From positions 1 through 23,496 of the IMG/VR virus record IMGVR_UViG_3300036857_000123: a stretch of 23,496 bases of DNA. One strand, written 5' to 3'. Under the pieces are notes generated by a model, which made no database searches, was not told the origin of the DNA, and saw nothing but the letters and a program-made list of their open reading frames with translations. A program made the position numbers and the translations under genes. The stretch's first letter is position 1, and every line of letters starts with the position of its first letter. This document shows positions 13,977 to 23,496 of the stretch, piece by piece. The DNA is from a virus.

Positions 13977-16685
13977 TCATGGCGCGGTCTCATCCTGGAA
14001 TTGCTCGAACAAGCCCCGGAGCTCGAGTGCCGGCCCCTTTTTGCCGTTAGACAAGAGCGGGACGGCGACGTAGCGCGCGGGGTCCAGCGACCAGCCTACG
14101 ATTGCCGGAGCAGCTTCACCCTGCGGCCCGCGCTCTCCACGCTCGCCCCTCTCGCCGCGCGGCCCCGGCTCGCCGGACGCTCCGTCCTTGCCGTTCTTGC
14201 GCTGCACGAGGAGTTGCCAGCCCTCGCCAGGACATGGGCCCGGGTCGTCCTTGCGCGCGATGAACGAGCCGCCGTCGCGGGTAACGATGTCGAGGAAATT
14301 GTAGCGCTCTGCTTCCTTGAAGACGCCGCGGGGCTGCGGCCCGGTGCCGTCCATGCCGCGAAACGCGAGACCGATCCAATCGGGATGCGGCGGCATCTGT
14401 CCGGTATCTTTGGTCGCCTGCCAGGTCGAGCCCTTGTGCGCGACCACCTCGCCCTCGTAGTAGACGCGTTCGGGCTTGAACGCTTTCACGATCGGTAGTT
14501 TTCCGGGAGCGCCTTGAGGGCCAGCGGGTCCCGTGGGGCCCACGTTTCCCTTTTCGCCTTTCTCGCCGCGATCACCTCTCTCGCCGTCGACTCCGTCACG
14601 ACCAGCTTGACCAGGAGGCCCGGCTTCGCCGCGCTCGCCTTTCTCTCCGCGTTCGCCTGGAACGCCAGCCTCACCGGGAGCGCCTCGTTCGCCTAGCGGG
14701 CCGGCAGGACCAGGAAGCCCAGGCTCGCCGTCGGAACCTCGCGGCCCGGGTTCGCCGTTCCTGCCAGGAGGGCCGGGCGGTCCTTGCGGGCCCGGATCAC
14801 CCTGGGGACCAGCAGGCCCAATACTTCCCGGCTCACCCTTGTCACCCTTTTCACCCTTCTCGCCGGTTTCGCCTTTCTCCCCGCGCTCGCCTTGCGGGCC
14901 CGGATCGCCTTTCTCGCCGCGTTCGCCACGTTCGCCTGACGCGCCCGGATCGCCTTGTGGACCCTGCGGCCCCTGCGCGCCCACTTGGCCTTGCTTCCCG
15001 CGTTCACCTGGCTCGCCGCGCGCGCCCGCATCACCTTGTGGACCCTGCAGCCCCTGCGCGCCAGCTTCGCCTTGCTCCCCGCGTTCACCTCGCTCGCCAG
15101 GCGCGCCGTCGAGACCTCTCTCGCCCTGCGGTCCAGGATCGCCTTTCTCGCCGCGTTCGCCGCGCTCGCCTGCTTCTCCGGGCGGGCCGTCGAGACCTCT
15201 CTCGCCCTGCGGTCCAGGATCGCCTTTCTCGCCGCGTTCGCCGCGCTCGCCTGCTTCTCCGGGCGGGCCGTCGAGACCTCTCTCGCCTTGCGGGCCGGAA
15301 GCGCCTTTCTCGCCGCGTTCGCCGCGCTCGCCTGACGCGCCCGGATCACCTTGTGGACCTTGCGGCCCCTGCGCGCCAGCTTCGCCTTGCTCCCCGCGTT
15401 CACCTCGCTCGCCAGGCGCGCCCGCATCACCTTGCGGACCCTGCGGCCCCTGCGCGCCAGCTTCGCCCTTCTCGCCGCGTTCGCCGCGCTCGCCTGTTTG
15501 TCCCGGCGCGCCGTCGAGACCTCTCTCGCCCTGCGGTCCAGGATCGCCTTTCTCGCCGCGTTCGCCGCGCTCGCCAGGCGCGCCCGGATCACCTCGTGGA
15601 CCATGCGGCCCCTGCGCGCCAGCTTCGCCTTTCTCGCCGCGTTCGCCTGCTTGTCCCGGCGCGCCGTCGAGACCTCTCTCGCCCTGCGGTCCAGGATCGC
15701 CTTTCTCGCCGCGTTCGCCGCGCTCGCCAGGCGCGCCCGGATCACCTTGCGGACCATGCGGCCCCTGCGCGCCAGCTTCGCCTTTCTCGCCGCGTTCGCC
15801 TGCTTGTCCCGGCGCGCCGTCGAGACCTCTCTCGCCTTCCGGACCAGGATCGCCTTTCTCGCCGCGTTCGCCGCGCTCGCCTGCTTGTCCCGGCGCGCCG
15901 TCGAGACCTCTCTCGCCCTGCGGTCCAGGATCGCCTTCCTCGCCGCGTTCGCCGCGCTCGCCAGGCGCGCCCGGATCACCTTGTGGACCCTGCGGCCCCT
16001 GCGCGCCAGCTTCGCCTTGCTCCCCGCGTTCACCTCGCTCGCCAGGCGCGCCTGCATCACCTTGCGGACCCTGCGGCCCCTGCGCGCCAGCTTCGCCTTT
16101 CTCGCCGCGTTCGCCACGCTCCCCTGACGCGCCCGGATCGCCTTGTGGACCCTGCGGCCCCTGCGCGCCCACTTCGCCTTGCTTCCCGCGTTCACCTCGC
16201 TCGCCAGGCGCGCCCGGATCACCTTGTGGACCCTGCGGCCCCTGCGCGCCCACTTCGCCTTGCTTTCCGCGTTCACCGCGCTCACCAGGCGCGCCCGCAT
16301 TTCCATGTGGACCAGGCGGCCCCTGCGCGCCAGCTTCGCCTTTCTCGCCGCGTTCGCCGCGCTCACCAGCTTGGCCAGGTGCGCCATCCTTCACAAGCGC
16401 AAGCCGATCGGCGACCTGTGCGTTGATTTCGAGCATCCTCTGCAACGATGCCGCGTCGAACGCCGCGCGCATTTCGACGAGCTGCACCCGGAGCTCGGCG
16501 ATAGTGGCGCTCGATTGCGCCATCGCCGCCCGCGACTGCGCCTCGATGACTGCGAGCTCGCGCTCCCATTGCCGGCGAAGCACCGCAATAGTGTGGCCGA
16601 TGGCATCGCGGACCGCGTCAGAGATCAAGCCGTCCAGCGAAGGTGTCAGCGGTGTGGAGGAAAGTTTGACAGAGCCGTCGGACAT
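13977..16685 (-). CDS. Collagen-like structural protein with C-terminal carbohydrate-binding-like modules
   Basis: A 902-residue protein. Residues 1-100 are a helical, possibly trimerising head ([14 protein letters not shown], then [15 protein letters not shown] and a second heptad-like helix). Residues about 101-729 are nearly unbroken Gly-X-Y collagen triplets (about 210), rich in [12 protein letters not shown] and GEKGEA and lacking large hydrophobics. The C-terminus has two CBM5/12-like modules ([18 protein letters not shown] then PDWIGLA, about 738-778; [17 protein letters not shown] then GWQLLV), a short second collagen run, and a tail [18 protein letters not shown] then LRGLFEQF. A trimeric fibre binding host polysaccharide is the likely role. 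ATG 16685 has GAAGGA 10 bases upstream and overlaps the portal end by 68 bases. Its place between portal and connector is odd for a fibre and suggests a head or neck appendage. Confidence 0.85.
14497..16385 (-). repeat. Collagen-coding tandem repeat array
   Basis: About 1.9 kb of imperfect direct repeats built on 9-base Gly-X-Y units and longer blocks. A block containing CCGTCGAGACCTCTCTCGCC on the plus strand recurs seven times between about 15100 and 15920. An 81-base unit (27 residues, 9 triplets) is repeated head to tail around 15120-15290. The high identity between blocks points to recent expansion and contraction by recombination or slippage, so length is likely variable between strains. 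Confidence 0.9.
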
Positions 16686-18072
16686 TTTCGTCGTAGTCCT
16701 TCGGTGGTGGCGCCGGTGGCGAGGGCGGCGGAGCAGGTGCAGCGGGCGGATGCGGACCACTGGATGTTGGTTTTGCGCCGAGCCCTGCCGCGGCGCTCAG
16801 GGGCACAACCTGCTGCTGGACGCGCGGCTCGTCCCCCTGATCCACGCTGTCGAGTCCTTCGCGGTTGCGTGCCTCGTTGGGCGAGAACACACCACCTTGC
16901 ACCCCGCGGGTCAGCGCCTCGATCCGATCCCTGAATTGCGAGCGCAGGAGCGCCGAGGTGTCGAGCTCGAGGTATTCGTGGGGTTGGCCCTTCAATTGGA
17001 ATAGTTGGCCGAACGCCTCCTCGATGTGGTTGAGAGCAAAACCGAGCCCTGTCCCGATCCAGAACTGCATGAGCGCTTCGGTCGACGAGAACGGCGCGCC
17101 GCCGGAGAGACCGAGAACCTGCAACGGGATGCGGAACGCGAGCGCGATCTGCTCACCGGAAAGCTTCATGACCTCGGCCACCTGGGCGTCCTTGCCTGGC
17201 GTCGTCCAAGGCTGGACCTTTAGGCCGGCGGTCAAGATGGGCGTGCCGCCTGGCCCACAACCGTCGAGGCCTTTGGCCTGTTCGTTCCAGCGCTGGCGTA
17301 GCTCGTCCACCTGCTCGCGATTGAGCACGAGATCGGTCGAGAGCACGGCGGATGGCCGCGCCTGGTTGATGTAGAATTGGATTTGCTGGCGCTTAATCGC
17401 GTCGGTCTGCGCGATATCGGCGAGGGCAGCCATTAACGGCGTCTCGCCTTTCAGCGGAAACGGAAACTTGTGGTCCGTCGTGTGCAGGCGGATATGGAGG
17501 ACATCGCGCTGCGGCACGATCAGTTGCGTGTTGCCGATCCGGCCTAGTTCGAGGCGACGCGCGATGATGTCGTTGCCGGCCAGGTGATAGAAGATCTCGC
17601 CATTGACAGCGAGCTGTGGCGTGCACTGCCGCGAATCCATCAAATGAAGGGAATCGACCTCGAAGCGGGAATTGCGCAAAGCTAGCGCATAGGCGTTGCC
17701 TTCCAGATAGAGGTAGCGCGTCGCGTTTAATAAGAAATCGGAGATTGATTGGTAGTCGTTCGGCTTGCGCAGGATGCGCGAGAGCGCGGAATTGTTGACG
17801 CGGTCGCGACCGCCTTTGTCGTTCGAACGCCAGTGATCGCCGGGGCACATCGCGACGGTCTGTGCATACGCGGAGATGCAGGCCTCCACCATGGCGGAGC
17901 GCTGCCCAGTGCCGCTCGGATCCATCCCAAGCTGCCAGAAATTCAGCGGCGCGCCGTCGGGCAACCAACCCCCGCTAAGCGGCAGATAATATGGCCCCGG
18001 ACGAAATGCGCCCTCGGTGGCTTTTGCCACCAAGGGCCCGATGACGCGAGCGATCAGCGCGCGTGCGTTCAT
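16618..18072 (-). CDS. Portal protein (HK97 gp3-like)
   Basis: A 484-residue portal of the phage_portal / HK97 gp3 family, the dodecameric ring at the head vertex that DNA is pumped through. Family landmarks are [20 protein letters not shown], then [69 protein letters not shown], and [20 protein letters not shown] followed by [11 protein letters not shown]. After the family core the end is proline-rich ([20 protein letters not shown]) and overlaps the next gene by 68 bases. ATG 18072 overlaps the stop of the preceding small gene as ATGA. In most HK97-like phages the portal follows the terminase directly; here it comes after both capsid genes. Confidence 0.95.
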
Positions 18073-18512: not shown

Positions 18513-20708
18513 TCACCAGGTGACGTTCTGCACCCACGCGACCATGCCGGATCGTCGCATGGTCCAGTTGAGGTTCATGATCATACGCAGAGCCAGCGAA
18601 TCCGTTTGGAATAGAGATCGCACTGGCGCCGAAGCGGGGCCGCTCGGTCCCGGCGCAATCGGTGCGGGTGCCGTATCTTCTTCATGCAGAGTTGCCTGGT
18701 CGCTCATCTCGAAGCGCGGAGCGTCGGCACCGGCGGTGACGAAGTCCGCGGCGTCGATGAGGATAAGAGTCCTCGGCGGGACCGTGAAGGAGTCGATGAA
18801 CGCAATGCCGTCGAGGTTGCCCGCATCGATCTCGGCGCGGAAGGGAAAGACTCCGCTTTGCGAGACGATGACCATGCGCAAGCGATGCAGGTCGCCCGGA
18901 TTTAGCAGCCACACCGGATTACGCACGTTGCCGAGCGTGCTCGTAATAAGCGCGGAGACCAATTGACTGATATCGCCGATCGCCGCATCAAGTCCACCGC
19001 CGGCGGTCGCGGTGAGCGCCGCCACGCCGTTGAGCAGACCAGCGGGACGAACCACGGTCGCCGGATTGGCGTCGAGCAGCACCGAGTCGATCGCAACCGT
19101 GGTGTCCTCTTGGACGGCATCGCGCAGCAAGCCCTCGATCGCGGGCGTGCTGTAAACGTCCATCTCTCTGGTCCAGGTCGTAATGACTGCGAGTTTTTTC
19201 GGGGTCAGCGCCTGGGTCGTGAACAAGCCCTGGCGAACGGGGATCGGTTGTCCCTCACCGACGAACGAGCCGGCGATCGTCGGCGTACGTGCGCGGGTCG
19301 GGATGTTGATCTTGCCAGCTCGGCCGAAGCTGAGCGCAAGCCCGCGCGCGGAGAGCCGATTGAACACCGCTTTGGGCATCAAGAGCGGCATGAAGTCCGT
19401 CCATGTCTGCTGGACGAGTTCGGCTGCCCATCCAACCACGCTGGTCATAGCGGGGGCTGAGGCGGCGCGCAGCACGAGCTCGCACATGCCCTTGGTGCCG
19501 TCGTCCTCGTAAACCTTGAAATGGCGCCCGATCATCAGGCGCGCTTCCTCGATCGGCTTGCCCCAGGATTTCGCGGCGTAGGCGACCACGGCGGCGCGGA
19601 TCATGTAGTCGAGCGGATCGTATTCCTTTCCACGACTCTTGATGAGGTACGGCACCTCGATCGCGGTGCGCTGCTCGCCGGCGCCGTTGTTGTTCGGCGG
19701 CTGGTAGACGGTGAGGTCGCGCTGTTGGCCGTTGCCCCCGCCGCTGGTGCTCACGCTCGTGCCGGCGAGGATCCGCTCGGACGTGACCATATTCTCGCGT
19801 TGCTTGGTGAGCGTCGCGAGCCTAGCGTTGAGATCGTTCGACCGCTGCAGGTCGGCGTCGCTGACATTGGTGTCGTCAACTTTCTCCCAATGGGCGTTTA
19901 GCTCGTCCTGCGTGGCGACGATCCGCCCCTCGAGTTCCTGAATCCTTTGAGCAAGAGGCGTCATGGCTCTGCTCCTTCCATTTGCGTGCCTCTGATTGCC
20001 GTGCTCGGCGTGATATTCCCGCGCGCGGGTTTCCTCGGTTCTCTTGCCGTGCTCGGCGAAGACGAGGTCCATGGTGGCGCGGGAAATGTTGAGAGACTTC
20101 GCGACGGCCAGCGCGTTGGGATTCGCGGGCACGGCTACGAGCGAAGTCTCGACCAGCTCCGATTTGGTGTAACGGGTGCCGCCCCAAGGGTCCTTCTCGT
20201 CGATCGGCTGATGCTCCAGCGGCTTGAAGCCGACGGACACCGCTTTGAGGATCCCGGCCTGCACCAGGCGGCGGATCTCGTCGATGCGATCGGACGTTCC
20301 CTCCGGTGCGAGCTCGAGCCCGCCGCGTAGCTCCTTGTGCTCGACCCGCAGATTGCTCCACTTGCCGACGACGAATTTAGGGTCATGCGAGAAGAGGGCG
20401 ACGGGGTTGCGCTTGAAATCGGCGAGCTGCCAGCCTTCGACCTCGATGATGTCGCCGTAGCGGTCGGGCGTCGCGTCGGAGAGCACGAACTCGAGCGCAT
20501 CGCCGGCGCTCTTGTCGATGTGCAGCTTGTGCATCAGGGGCGGAGTCATTTGGTCCGCCCAGGCCACCTCGCACTCGTTGCGCGCGTCGCTCTCGCTCAT
20601 GTTCTCCTCGTCCATGAGCTCGCCGATGCAGCGGTCCATGAAGTCGCTGCGCGACTCGCCGTCCATGGGTGCTGGTGCTTGCTTGGCCTTGTGACGTTTG
20701 ATGGGCAT
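18513..20708 (-). CDS. Prohead protease fused to HK97-type major capsid protein
   Basis: A 731-residue fusion. Residues about 60-215 form an S78/HK97 gp4-type prohead protease: FVLSDATPDRYGDIIEVEGW, catalytic His 108 in LFSHDP, Ser 158 in AVSVGF, then ELVETSLVAVPANPNAL. Residues about 249-312 form a charged coiled coil like the HK97 delta (scaffold) domain. Residues about 345-731 are the capsid fold, with AMTSVVGWAAELVQQ, FVGEGQPIP, NPATVVRPAGLLNG and an FQTDSLALRMIM C-terminal segment. The protease normally matures the head by removing delta domains. The start at 20708 has GGAGG about 10 bases upstream. An internal ATG at 19964 with an ideal AAGGAG could produce capsid without protease. The capsid part is a paralogue of the preceding gene. 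Confidence 0.93.
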   Translation of the reverse strand: MPIKRHKAKQAPAPMDGESRSDFMDRCIGELMDEENMSESDARNECEVAWADQMTPPLMHKLHIDKSAGDALEFVLSDATPDRYGDIIEVEGWQLADFKRNPVALFSHDPKFVVGKWSNLRVEHKELRGGLELAPEGTSDRIDEIRRLVQAGILKAVSVGFKPLEHQPIDEKDPWGGTRYTKSELVETSLVAVPANPNALAVAKSLNISRATMDLVFAEHGKRTEETRAREYHAEHGNQRHANGRSRAMTPLAQRIQELEGRIVATQDELNAHWEKVDDTNVSDADLQRSNDLNARLATLTKQRENMVTSERILAGTSVSTSGGGNGQQRDLTVYQPPNNNGAGEQRTAIEVPYLIKSRGKEYDPLDYMIRAAVVAYAAKSWGKPIEEARLMIGRHFKVYEDDGTKGMCELVLRAASAPAMTSVVGWAAELVQQTWTDFMPLLMPKAVFNRLSARGLALSFGRAGKINIPTRARTPTIAGSFVGEGQPIPVRQGLFTTQALTPKKLAVITTWTREMDVYSTPAIEGLLRDAVQEDTTVAIDSVLLDANPATVVRPAGLLNGVAALTATAGGGLDAAIGDISQLVSALITSTLGNVRNPVWLLNPGDLHRLRMVIVSQSGVFPFRAEIDAGNLDGIAFIDSFTVPPRTLILIDAADFVTAGADAPRFEMSDQATLHEEDTAPAPIAPGPSGPASAPVRSLFQTDSLALRMIMNLNWTMRRSGMVAWVQNVTW
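19962..19977 (-). promoter_or_regulatory. Internal ribosome binding site and start for free capsid protein
   Basis: Within the protease-capsid frame, AAGGAG (19972-19977) lies 7 bases before an in-frame ATG (19964-19962). Translation from here gives a 483-residue protein beginning MTPLAQRIQELEGRIVATQD, the normal start of an HK97-type capsid protein with its coiled-coil delta domain. This would let the phage make far more capsid than protease from one frame. Confidence 0.6.
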
Positions 20709-20810
20709 AGCGCGAGTCCTCCCGTTGCAGGGCAGCCTCGAGTCGGTTGTTTTCCGCTTGGCGGATTCGGTTCACCGCCCATCAGGGATGAGGGTCGGCC
20801 CAGCCCACAA

Positions 20811-20917: not shown

Positions 20918-22018
20918 TTAGTTCCAGGACGGCGTCAGCCACGCCACCCCGCGAGGATCGCGCAGCGCCCACGTCGCCGGCCAGCGCACCTTGAGGGCGA
21001 TGCTGTCGGTCTGCCATAGCGAGCGTGCCGGTCCCGCCACCATGAGCGGCTGCGGGCTTGAGTCCTCGTGCAGCGTCGCCGCCTTCGCCGTCTCGATGTC
21101 AGGATCGGCGCTGATCGCGGCGACGAGGGTTGTGGGCGCGATGGCGACCAGATCGGCGCCGACGGCGGCCGACGGCAAGACCTGGATGAGCCGATTCTCG
21201 CGATCGAACTGACGATAGAAGCGGCTGTTCATCGTGACCGCACGACCCGCACGGGCCACAAGGATGAACGGTCCCCCGCCGCCAACGGCCGAAACCGAAC
21301 CGACGAGCGTAGAAAAGTCCGCGAGGACCGCCTCTATTGCGTTGGAGTCATTGCTTGCGGTTAGCGCCGCGATCCCGTTGCGGATGCCTGCGGGCCGCGC
21401 GGCAGATGCGGCGTTGGAATCGAAGAACGCGGCGTCGAGCGCCAGGCCAGCGGAACGGACGAGCGCGTCCCCGATCAGCGCCTCGGCGTTGGAGCTCTCG
21501 ATCATCTCGCGCGTCAGCACGACGATGCTCCCGATCTTGTACGGGCTCAGCGTCGGGCCGGCGGTGTTGAGCTGGCACACCGGGATCGGTTGCCCCTCGG
21601 CGACGAAGCTTGCGTACTTCGGATCAGTGATGAGGCCAGGCACCATGATCTGCCCGGCCCCATTGAAATTCAGGACGAGCCCCTCGCGGATCAATTGCGC
21701 CGCAGCCGATGCCGGGCCCAAGGCCTCGACCGCGTCGGCGGTGACCTTCTGCGCGAGCTCTGCTGCCCAGCCCGTGACCGTCGTCATCGCGGGGGAGGTC
21801 GCGGCTCGCTCGACGAGTTCAGCCATGATGCGGTCGCTCGGCCAGTGCCGCGCGACGATGTCGGCGCACGAACGGCCGGTGACCTGGCCGATGACGCGCA
21901 TCACCGCCATTCGCACGAACAGGTTGCCCGGTCGCAACGCCAGCGCGGACGAGCGCGGGCGAAAGCTGCTTTGCTGATCGCGTTGGCGATTGAATGAGAC
22001 TGGTTCGAGGAGCGTCAT
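20918..22018 (-). CDS. Second HK97-type major capsid protein paralogue (no protease, no delta domain)
   Basis: A 366-residue protein clearly related to the capsid half of the downstream fusion: both have AMT-V-GWAAEL, a V-EGQPIPV segment, R-AG--NG-AALTA and ATLHE followed by RSL-QTDS-AL. It has only about 65 residues before the shared part and lacks the coiled-coil delta domain. The frame opens at a TTG at 22051, but the ATG at 22018 has GAGG 8 bases upstream and gives MTLLEPVSFNRQRDQQSSFR; I prefer it. It is the first gene after the terminase and has its own structured leader. It could be a second shell subunit, a penton or decoration-like variant, or a decaying duplicate; intact length and sequence argue against decay. 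Confidence 0.9.
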   Translation of the reverse strand: MTLLEPVSFNRQRDQQSSFRPRSSALALRPGNLFVRMAVMRVIGQVTGRSCADIVARHWPSDRIMAELVERAATSPAMTTVTGWAAELAQKVTADAVEALGPASAAAQLIREGLVLNFNGAGQIMVPGLITDPKYASFVAEGQPIPVCQLNTAGPTLSPYKIGSIVVLTREMIESSNAEALIGDALVRSAGLALDAAFFDSNAASAARPAGIRNGIAALTASNDSNAIEAVLADFSTLVGSVSAVGGGGPFILVARAGRAVTMNSRFYRQFDRENRLIQVLPSAAVGADLVAIAPTTLVAAISADPDIETAKAATLHEDSSPQPLMVAGPARSLWQTDSIALKVRWPATWALRDPRGVAWLTPSWN

Positions 22019-22188: not shown

Positions 22189-23496
22189 TCATCCGATGAG
22201 TGACGCGATGTCGATTGGCGCGGCGGTGCGATCGCGGGAGCGCAACCCCATCATCATCGCCAGCGCCACCGCGCCGTCGATGCGGAAGCGCGCCTTATCC
22301 TTATCGAGTTTGCGATTACCAGCAGGGTCCATGGTCGCGACCGCATTAGCCACATTCCAATTGAGCGCCGGGTTATTCGGATGGACGAGTTTCTCCTCGA
22401 CAATGGCAAGCTCGAGCGCGTCGATCGCCGGGCCCATGCTGGCGAAGCCCTGGCCCCACGGCACCACGCGCAAGCCGTCGCCCTTTTTGCCGTCCTCGAA
22501 TGCTTGCAGACCAATGCGATCAAACTCGCGCAGAAGATCACTCATCCGCCATCGATCATAGGCGAGCGCCTTGACGCGGTACTGCTGGCAGAGCTCAGCG
22601 ATCTTGGTGGCGACCACGGCGTGGTCGATGCTCTTTCCGGGGGTCGTGAGTAGGTGACCCTCGCGCGCCCACCACAAATAACGGTGGTTGCCGGTGCCGA
22701 AGTCCCGATCGGAATGGGCGACCAGATGCTCGGCCGGCTTCCAGATGAACGGCACGACGCGGCAAGGATCGTCTGCCGAGCCCATCACCAGCGCAGTGAG
22801 GTCGATTACGCTCGAGAGGTCGAGCCCGAGATAGACCTCCTCGCCCGGTCCGAGCGAGATGTTGCCGGCGCGCGCCATCCATTCAACGCGCGAGATCAGC
22901 GTTGCAGTCGGCGAGACGCGCTGGTTTAGGAAGAGGTTGCGCACCTTCGGCTCCTCGGCCGGCATGCGCTTAGCCTTTCGGATCGCGGCGACCAGGTCCT
23001 CGCGATCGCGAAAGATATCGAGCGCCGGGTTGGCCTTCCGCCATTGTGCCTCGTCCTCGAGGTCGCAATCGTCGTCGGCCGCGTGCAAGTGGCAGACGAT
23101 GCTCGCATCGACACCAGAGATCCCGTCGTCGATGAGCTTCGAAAGGATGTGCTCGGGATCGTTCGATTGCGTGCTGATGACGATGAACAGCGGCTCCTCG
23201 CGGGCCCCAAACGAGGTGTCGAGCACGTCGTAGAGCTCGCGGTTTTTGGCCTGCGCCAGCTCATCGTAGATCACGACGCTCGGCACGTAGCCGTGCTTGG
23301 TGCCGGCCTCTGCCGAGATCGCGCGATAGATCGAGCCCGTGGCTCGTGCCAGCATGGTCTTGGTCGACGGGATGATCTCGATTTTTTCCATCAGCACGGG
23401 CTCGAGCTCGACGATCTGGCGCGCGAACTTGAACACGATCGCTGCCTGGTCGCGATCATTGGCGGCGCTGTAGATCTCCCCGTTTGGTATCGCCTC
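22189..23496 (-). CDS. terL: Terminase large subunit (HK97-like), C-terminal 435 residues, cut by window edge
   Basis: The ATPase-nuclease that packages DNA into the prohead. The frame runs in from the right edge; the visible part opens EAIPNGEIYSAANDRDQAAI, the segment that follows Walker A in this family, so Walker A and the true start lie outside. Walker B is VVIYDE (visible residues 74-79) with the coupling motif IVISTQSND after it. The nuclease domain begins VYLGLDLSSVIDLTALVMG, with further acidic residues in ALAYDRWRM and a final Asp in RIDGAVALAMMMG. All expected acidic positions appear present. It is followed by capsid genes rather than by the portal, which is an unusual order. Confidence 0.95.
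   Translation of the reverse strand, partial: EAIPNGEIYSAANDRDQAAIVFKFARQIVELEPVLMEKIEIIPSTKTMLARATGSIYRAISAEAGTKHGYVPSVVIYDELAQAKNRELYDVLDTSFGAREEPLFIVISTQSNDPEHILSKLIDDGISGVDASIVCHLHAADDDCDLEDEAQWRKANPALDIFRDREDLVAAIRKAKRMPAEEPKVRNLFLNQRVSPTATLISRVEWMARAGNISLGPGEEVYLGLDLSSVIDLTALVMGSADDPCRVVPFIWKPAEHLVAHSDRDFGTGNHRYLWWAREGHLLTTPGKSIDHAVVATKIAELCQQYRVKALAYDRWRMSDLLREFDRIGLQAFEDGKKGDGLRVVPWGQGFASMGPAIDALELAIVEEKLVHPNNPALNWNVANAVATMDPAGNRKLDKDKARFRIDGAVALAMMMGLRSRDRTAAPIDIASLIG

Follow-up and report, generated by a model that had tools for sequence, protein, structure and literature searches.

The IMG/VR virus record IMGVR_UViG_3300036857_000123 (positions 1 to 23,496; this whole stretch of 23,496 bases is called the window below) encodes a prohead protease and a major capsid protein in one open reading frame (ORF) on the minus strand. 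The locus raises the question whether the capsid protein is produced only as part of this fusion or, in addition, from a start codon of its own. A first-pass annotation of the sequence had proposed a capsid gene nested inside the fusion, with an internal start at 19964. This proposal is supported by a start codon and a Shine-Dalgarno sequence (SD) conserved at the border of the two parts, by constraint on the nucleotides and by relatives in which the two genes are split. Judged from the sequences, it is very probable that two in-frame genes are present, one inside the other, and that the capsid gene keeps its own start within the protease-capsid fusion. The parts of the fusion are:

18513–20708, minus strand: fusion ORF of protease, linker, delta domain and major capsid protein, 731 amino acids (ORF call, Pfam, phrog_617)
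20717–20723, minus strand: GGGAGGA, the SD ahead of ATG 20708, where the full-length product begins (sequence; −10.3 kcal/mol)
20103–20414, minus strand: Peptidase_S78 (prohead protease) domain, residues 99–202 (PF04586, E 1.6e-09)
19959–20054, minus strand: linker, residues 219–250, of low confidence and probably disordered, variable among relatives (pLDDT < 50; alignment)
19972–19977, minus strand: internal SD AAGGAG (sequence; conservation in relatives)
19962–19964, minus strand: internal start codon ATG, Met249 (sequence, alignment)
19758–19955, minus strand: delta-domain helices, residues 252–317 (AlphaFold2 model)
18780–19412, minus strand: Phage_capsid domain, residues 433–643 (PF05065, E 7.2e-09)
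18513–19964, minus strand: putative nested major capsid gene with delta domain and HK97-fold shell, 483 amino acids (sequence, Pfam, model, split relatives)

The fused architecture belongs to an already catalogued family, since in a profile search positions 27–626 of the 626 positions of phrog_617 matched residues 71–731 of the fusion (E 1.3e-77). An assembly slip can be dismissed, because the ORF is present with 100% identity on four further contigs and well over 150 diverged relatives are likewise fused. The capsid part gave profile matches to 8gta and 9d9w, and its assignment to the HK97 fold is made by sequence only. A fold model of the full-length fusion (AlphaFold2) was good for the protease and for the delta-domain helices, predicted at residues 252–276 and 284–317, while the shell part was of low confidence and too poor for use.

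The in-frame ATG at 19964–19962 encodes Met249 of the 731-residue fusion, and the product predicted from it has 483 residues. It is preceded by AAGGAG (19977–19972) and the 7 nt CAGAGCC, in line with the spacing given in the first-pass annotation. In the model, the ATG is placed at the protease/delta-domain border, at the end of the predicted disordered linker and three residues ahead of the delta helices. With both strands of the window considered, AAGGAG is followed by an ATG at a distance of 5 to 9 bases only here. Of the 22 in-frame methionines tested in the fusion ORF, Met249 has the strongest SD. The claim that the internal SD is better than that of the full-length start held only in part. 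With the E. coli 16S rRNA tail it is the weaker of the two (−8.0 vs −10.3), while it is the stronger (−11.4 vs −10.3) with the Bradyrhizobium tail, CACCTCCTTTCT, found at the 3' end of the 16S rRNA in the genome of locus L115. The latter tail was used because the relatives point to alphaproteobacterial hosts.

Scanning of viral contigs with an alignment yielded at least 80 loci, most of them 48–59% identical across nearly the whole fusion. In an alignment of 82 fusion ORFs (the window gene, viral relatives and four distant ones of the enterobacterial type), a methionine is found within three columns of the border in 81, and the remaining one (L012) has a GTG. The linker just upstream varies in both sequence and length. 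When genome contigs were searched with the full fusion protein, no relative was obtained; the alignment as query then gave 21 prophage loci (Bradyrhizobium, Ensifer, Sphingomonas and others), 19 of them fused. The border methionine is present in 18 of these 19 prophage fusions and replaced by GTG in L103. All 83 fusions resembling that of Pseudomonas phage PAJU2 carry a border start codon (76 ATG, 7 GTG), counted within six columns, a distance at which single hits may arise by chance, so that the SD count given below is the stronger figure. The border site is also kept in fusions just 25–28% identical to that of the window. The first-pass annotation had named conservation of AAGGAG and ATG in homologous fusions as one check on its proposal; the start codon is kept in all three sets, and loss of SD and ATG from homologues with an intact fusion did not occur.

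After removal of near-copies, 69 representatives with a border methionine were left. In 62 of them, this methionine follows a correctly spaced SD core of 4 bases, compared to 114 of 1385 other in-frame methionines of the same genes. For the PAJU2-like fusions, the corresponding numbers are 81 of 83 at the border and 154 of 1238 elsewhere. With the Bradyrhizobium tail, 66 representatives were compared to a synonymous null, in which the same residues were recoded with the gene's own codons (three enterobacterial representatives were excluded, as this tail was used in place of that of E. coli). The internal SD reached a mean of −9.42 kcal/mol, compared to −6.30 for the synonymous recodings and −3.06 at 1346 other methionines, and was stronger than the mean of the null in 62 of 66 genes (Wilcoxon 1.8e-12, no phylogenetic correction). 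The AAGG at the border is distributed over the three codon phases (29, 16 and 16 occurrences), which means that the same bases are encoded through different amino acids. Arginine at the site is encoded by AGG or AGA in 35 of 42 cases, elsewhere in 483 of 3466. The enterobacterial fusions (49 representatives) are close enough in sequence for a test of synonymous sites. Synonymous identity was 0.84 for codons −35 to +4, compared to a gene mean of 0.55, an amino-acid-matched expectation of 0.52 and 0.62 in the best distant 40-codon window. A motif filter had dropped 5 of 83 enterobacterial loci; four of these are intact fusions that share this border, and in the fifth, L204, the capsid part is broken. 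On these comparisons, the constraint at the border acts on nucleotides as well as on residues.

A second line of evidence comes from relatives with separate genes. Out of 30 loci from one scan, L119 and L125 were followed. In L119, the protease and capsid genes are separate and in the same frame, with the TAA that ends the protease gene located between the SD-like AAAAGG of the capsid gene and its ATG. Scans around L119 and a related fused locus listed 104 loci, of which 83 are fused, 19 split and 2 partial; each scan covers at most its best 80 loci, and these counts are not frequencies. A motif search for the capsid start gives an ATG at the same place in all 19 split loci, so that Met249 is the counterpart of the capsid gene's own start. 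A capsid tree of 76 sequences (from 115 rows, near-copies removed) needs eight changes between the fused and the split state, at least five of them forced by well-supported branches. By this comparison, fused and split forms have changed into each other in part of the wider family, through a stop codon gained or lost between protease and capsid or through a change of frame, the capsid start staying in place.

Similar border sites were found in two unrelated fusion families of actinobacteriophages. In six of seven Maggie-type members examined, no other in-frame methionine has an SD as strong as that of the border methionine. Among the 11 Circum-type members examined, the shell start (Met242 of Circum) aligns to an ATG in nine. 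Of the other two, Pippin15 has a GTG shifted by one codon downstream and Lactococcus phage 1706 has TTG at this place, each preceded by a purine-rich GAAGG or AAAGGAG. Start codons swapping at one place are hard to explain by a role at the protein level. A second strong site, closer to the protease, is present in Circum (Met165) and several other members. The alignment of this type was anchored on the capsid start; the scaffold part does not align, and Met165 is therefore unusable as an anchor. L228 (8036–10012) and its Circum-type relatives apparently contain two internal starts, for scaffold and shell, and thus a three-level nested gene. We regard it as fairly likely that protease-capsid fusions as a rule contain nested capsid starts: several lineages that are unrelated or only very distantly related (the alphaproteobacterial, PAJU2/enterobacterial, Maggie and Circum types) would keep a ribosome site at the border, the Circum type two of them, the sharing of ribosomes between the starts would set the ratio of protease to capsid, and switching between fused and split forms would be almost free via a stop or frame change at the border.

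Several results weigh against a nested capsid gene. Local mRNA structure at the internal start of the window is not reduced (−10.6 vs −11.0, p 0.46). The synonymous test gives a weaker, yet still positive result when the E. coli tail is used (−6.25 vs −5.12, Wilcoxon 2e-4), and with the Bradyrhizobium tail the synonymous p-value of the single gene was below 0.1 in just 29 of 66. The sequences share ancestry, and the p-values of the SD and constraint tests are not phylogenetically corrected. Some prophage relatives have weak SDs (−1.0 in L113, −2.3 in L098 and L108), and Schiebs, one of the seven Maggie-type members, is devoid of the border methionine. The constraint in the enterobacterial fusions extends about 100 nt upstream, exceeding the need of an SD. 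Furthermore, in the 55 of 66 genes in which the full-length start could be judged, the internal SD exceeds the best candidate for that start in just 32 (Bradyrhizobium tail), and in the window the two values lie close together, so that a large excess of the short product is not implied by SD strength alone. As a separate observation, an RNA element or a promoter is possibly located in codons −35 to −10, ahead of the internal ATG, of the enterobacterial fusions (L014 and relatives).

The alternative that survives best, itself unlikely, is a polyprotein only: one long chain is made, the protease releases itself, and the border methionine is merely a residue beside the cleavage site. The fusion does contain an S78 domain, and an autocleaved polyprotein was proposed for the capsid protein of PAJU2, as reported in PMC8306868. 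The PAJU2 capsid polyprotein (P85500) is a fused member of the family, being identical to locus L284 (100% over 664 amino acids). However, a cleavage site needs neither AAGG in three codon phases nor AGG or AGA for arginine, it does not require synonymous constraint or the replacement of ATG by GTG at the same spot, and it leaves aside that split relatives begin a gene at the border. Cleavage between protease and capsid may take place as an additional step.

It is highly improbable that SD and ATG are a relic of a recent fusion and no longer used. Split relatives with the same start do exist, but the site persists, amid a variable linker, in fusions that are 48–59% and even 25–28% identical, and it is constrained at the nucleotide level.

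The last alternative concerns a neighbouring gene, overlooked in the first-pass annotation, which is located upstream of the fusion and encodes a second capsid-like protein. On the minus strand, the head module is arranged in the order terminase, capsid-like gene, fusion, 147-amino-acid ORF, portal and collagen-like gene:

22189–23436, minus strand: terminase large subunit
20918–22018, minus strand: second capsid-like gene, 366 amino acids, delta-less paralogue of the shell part (sequence; HK97-fold match)
between fusion and portal, minus strand: ORF of 147 amino acids
16618–18072, minus strand: portal
13977–16760, minus strand: protein of 927 amino acids with eight collagen-repeat stretches, directly after the portal gene
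farther along than the collagen-like gene, minus strand: tail sheath gene

The second capsid-like gene (ATG at 22018) is 33% identical to the fusion over 402 aligned positions, is devoid of the delta domain, and has a predicted HK97-like fold (best E 2.2e-10, moderate TM-scores). A similar delta-less gene was seen in 28 of 78 viral loci, with about 50% identity. Among the 14 viral loci with the terminase gene in view, two have it and 12 do not; these 12 still hold the internal start, so that the delta-less gene does not replace the nested start. That this conserved paralogue with its HK97-like fold supplies most of the shell and makes a nested start unnecessary is therefore scarcely credible, the more so as it is without the delta domain, which is held necessary for HK97 assembly according to the title of a reference in PMC10275583.

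Similar delta-less capsid genes, with no portal or protease visible, were found on a Sinorhizobium plasmid (L010) and a Cupriavidus plasmid (L011). In L022 (2584–4321), the delta-less capsid gene is separated from the fusion by a Methyltransf_24 gene and a gene with a weak TPR/glycosyltransferase-9-like match; similar genes are present in L019, L020, L034, L053 and L089 and absent from the window. They are perhaps capsid-modifying cargo. The collagen-repeat protein has matches at the same position in most relatives. In L058, L040, L042, L050 and L073, the reading frame of the fusion is open over 1183–1938 residues, which points to a possible fusion with genes upstream too. In one relative, a stop codon splits the capsid domain (L074, 4110–4113).

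For the nested capsid gene, we infer the following mode of action. Ribosomes starting at 20708 would produce the chain of protease, linker and capsid, while those starting at 19964, with its own SD and ATG, would produce an ordinary capsid precursor of 483 amino acids with delta domain and shell. The plain precursor would form the bulk of the shell, and the long chain would join the assembly via its shell part. In HK97-like proheads, the delta domain and anything N-terminal to it should face the interior, so that the tethered protease would end up inside the prohead. There it would subsequently cleave off both the delta domains and itself, and its dose would be set by the ratio of the two starts.

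Public annotations list these genes as single fusion products, one of them explained as a self-cutting polyprotein. If the internal start is used, the main structural protein is missing from the annotation of many phages, among them cultured phages of Arthrobacter, Gordonia, Streptomyces and Pseudomonas. The fusions would also be a natural system for asking how many copies of the protease a prohead needs and by which route they enter, since with a nested gene the protease would arrive tethered to a shell subunit, in a dose set by two start sites. The alternation of split and fused forms shows how fusion genes may arise without loss of either product. The fusion itself is already known; in the open-access literature, as covered by titles and the beginning of abstracts, no description of an internal capsid start in a protease-capsid fusion was found.

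Prohead protease and major capsid protein are encoded in one ORF in Arthrobacter phages of clusters AM, AU and AN and in Rhodococcus phage RRH1 (PMC5513430). The plan is the same as in the window, but the actinobacteriophage fusions are separate sequence families; the passages of PMC5513430 on these genes describe a fusion, with no mention of an internal start, and a scaffold-protease fusion of lambda is mentioned there as well. PAJU2 has the same architecture as the window and is a distant relative, with internal SD and ATG present (L284). In HK97, the gp4 protease and the gp5 capsid protein with its delta domain are encoded by separate genes without nesting; its head module shares the S78 protease and, judged by sequence, the HK97 fold with that of the window, in which a helical N-terminal delta domain, in HK97 removed on maturation, is predicted as well. 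In lambda gpC/Nu3, the gene that contains the protease has an in-frame internal start, from which its 3' part gives a short product made in abundance. In that case the nested product is the scaffold, with the capsid protein encoded by a separate gene, whereas the putative nested product in the window is the major capsid protein itself. On the sequence level, the conserved internal SD and in-frame start codon that characterize the gpC/Nu3 type of arrangement are found in these protease-capsid fusions as well.
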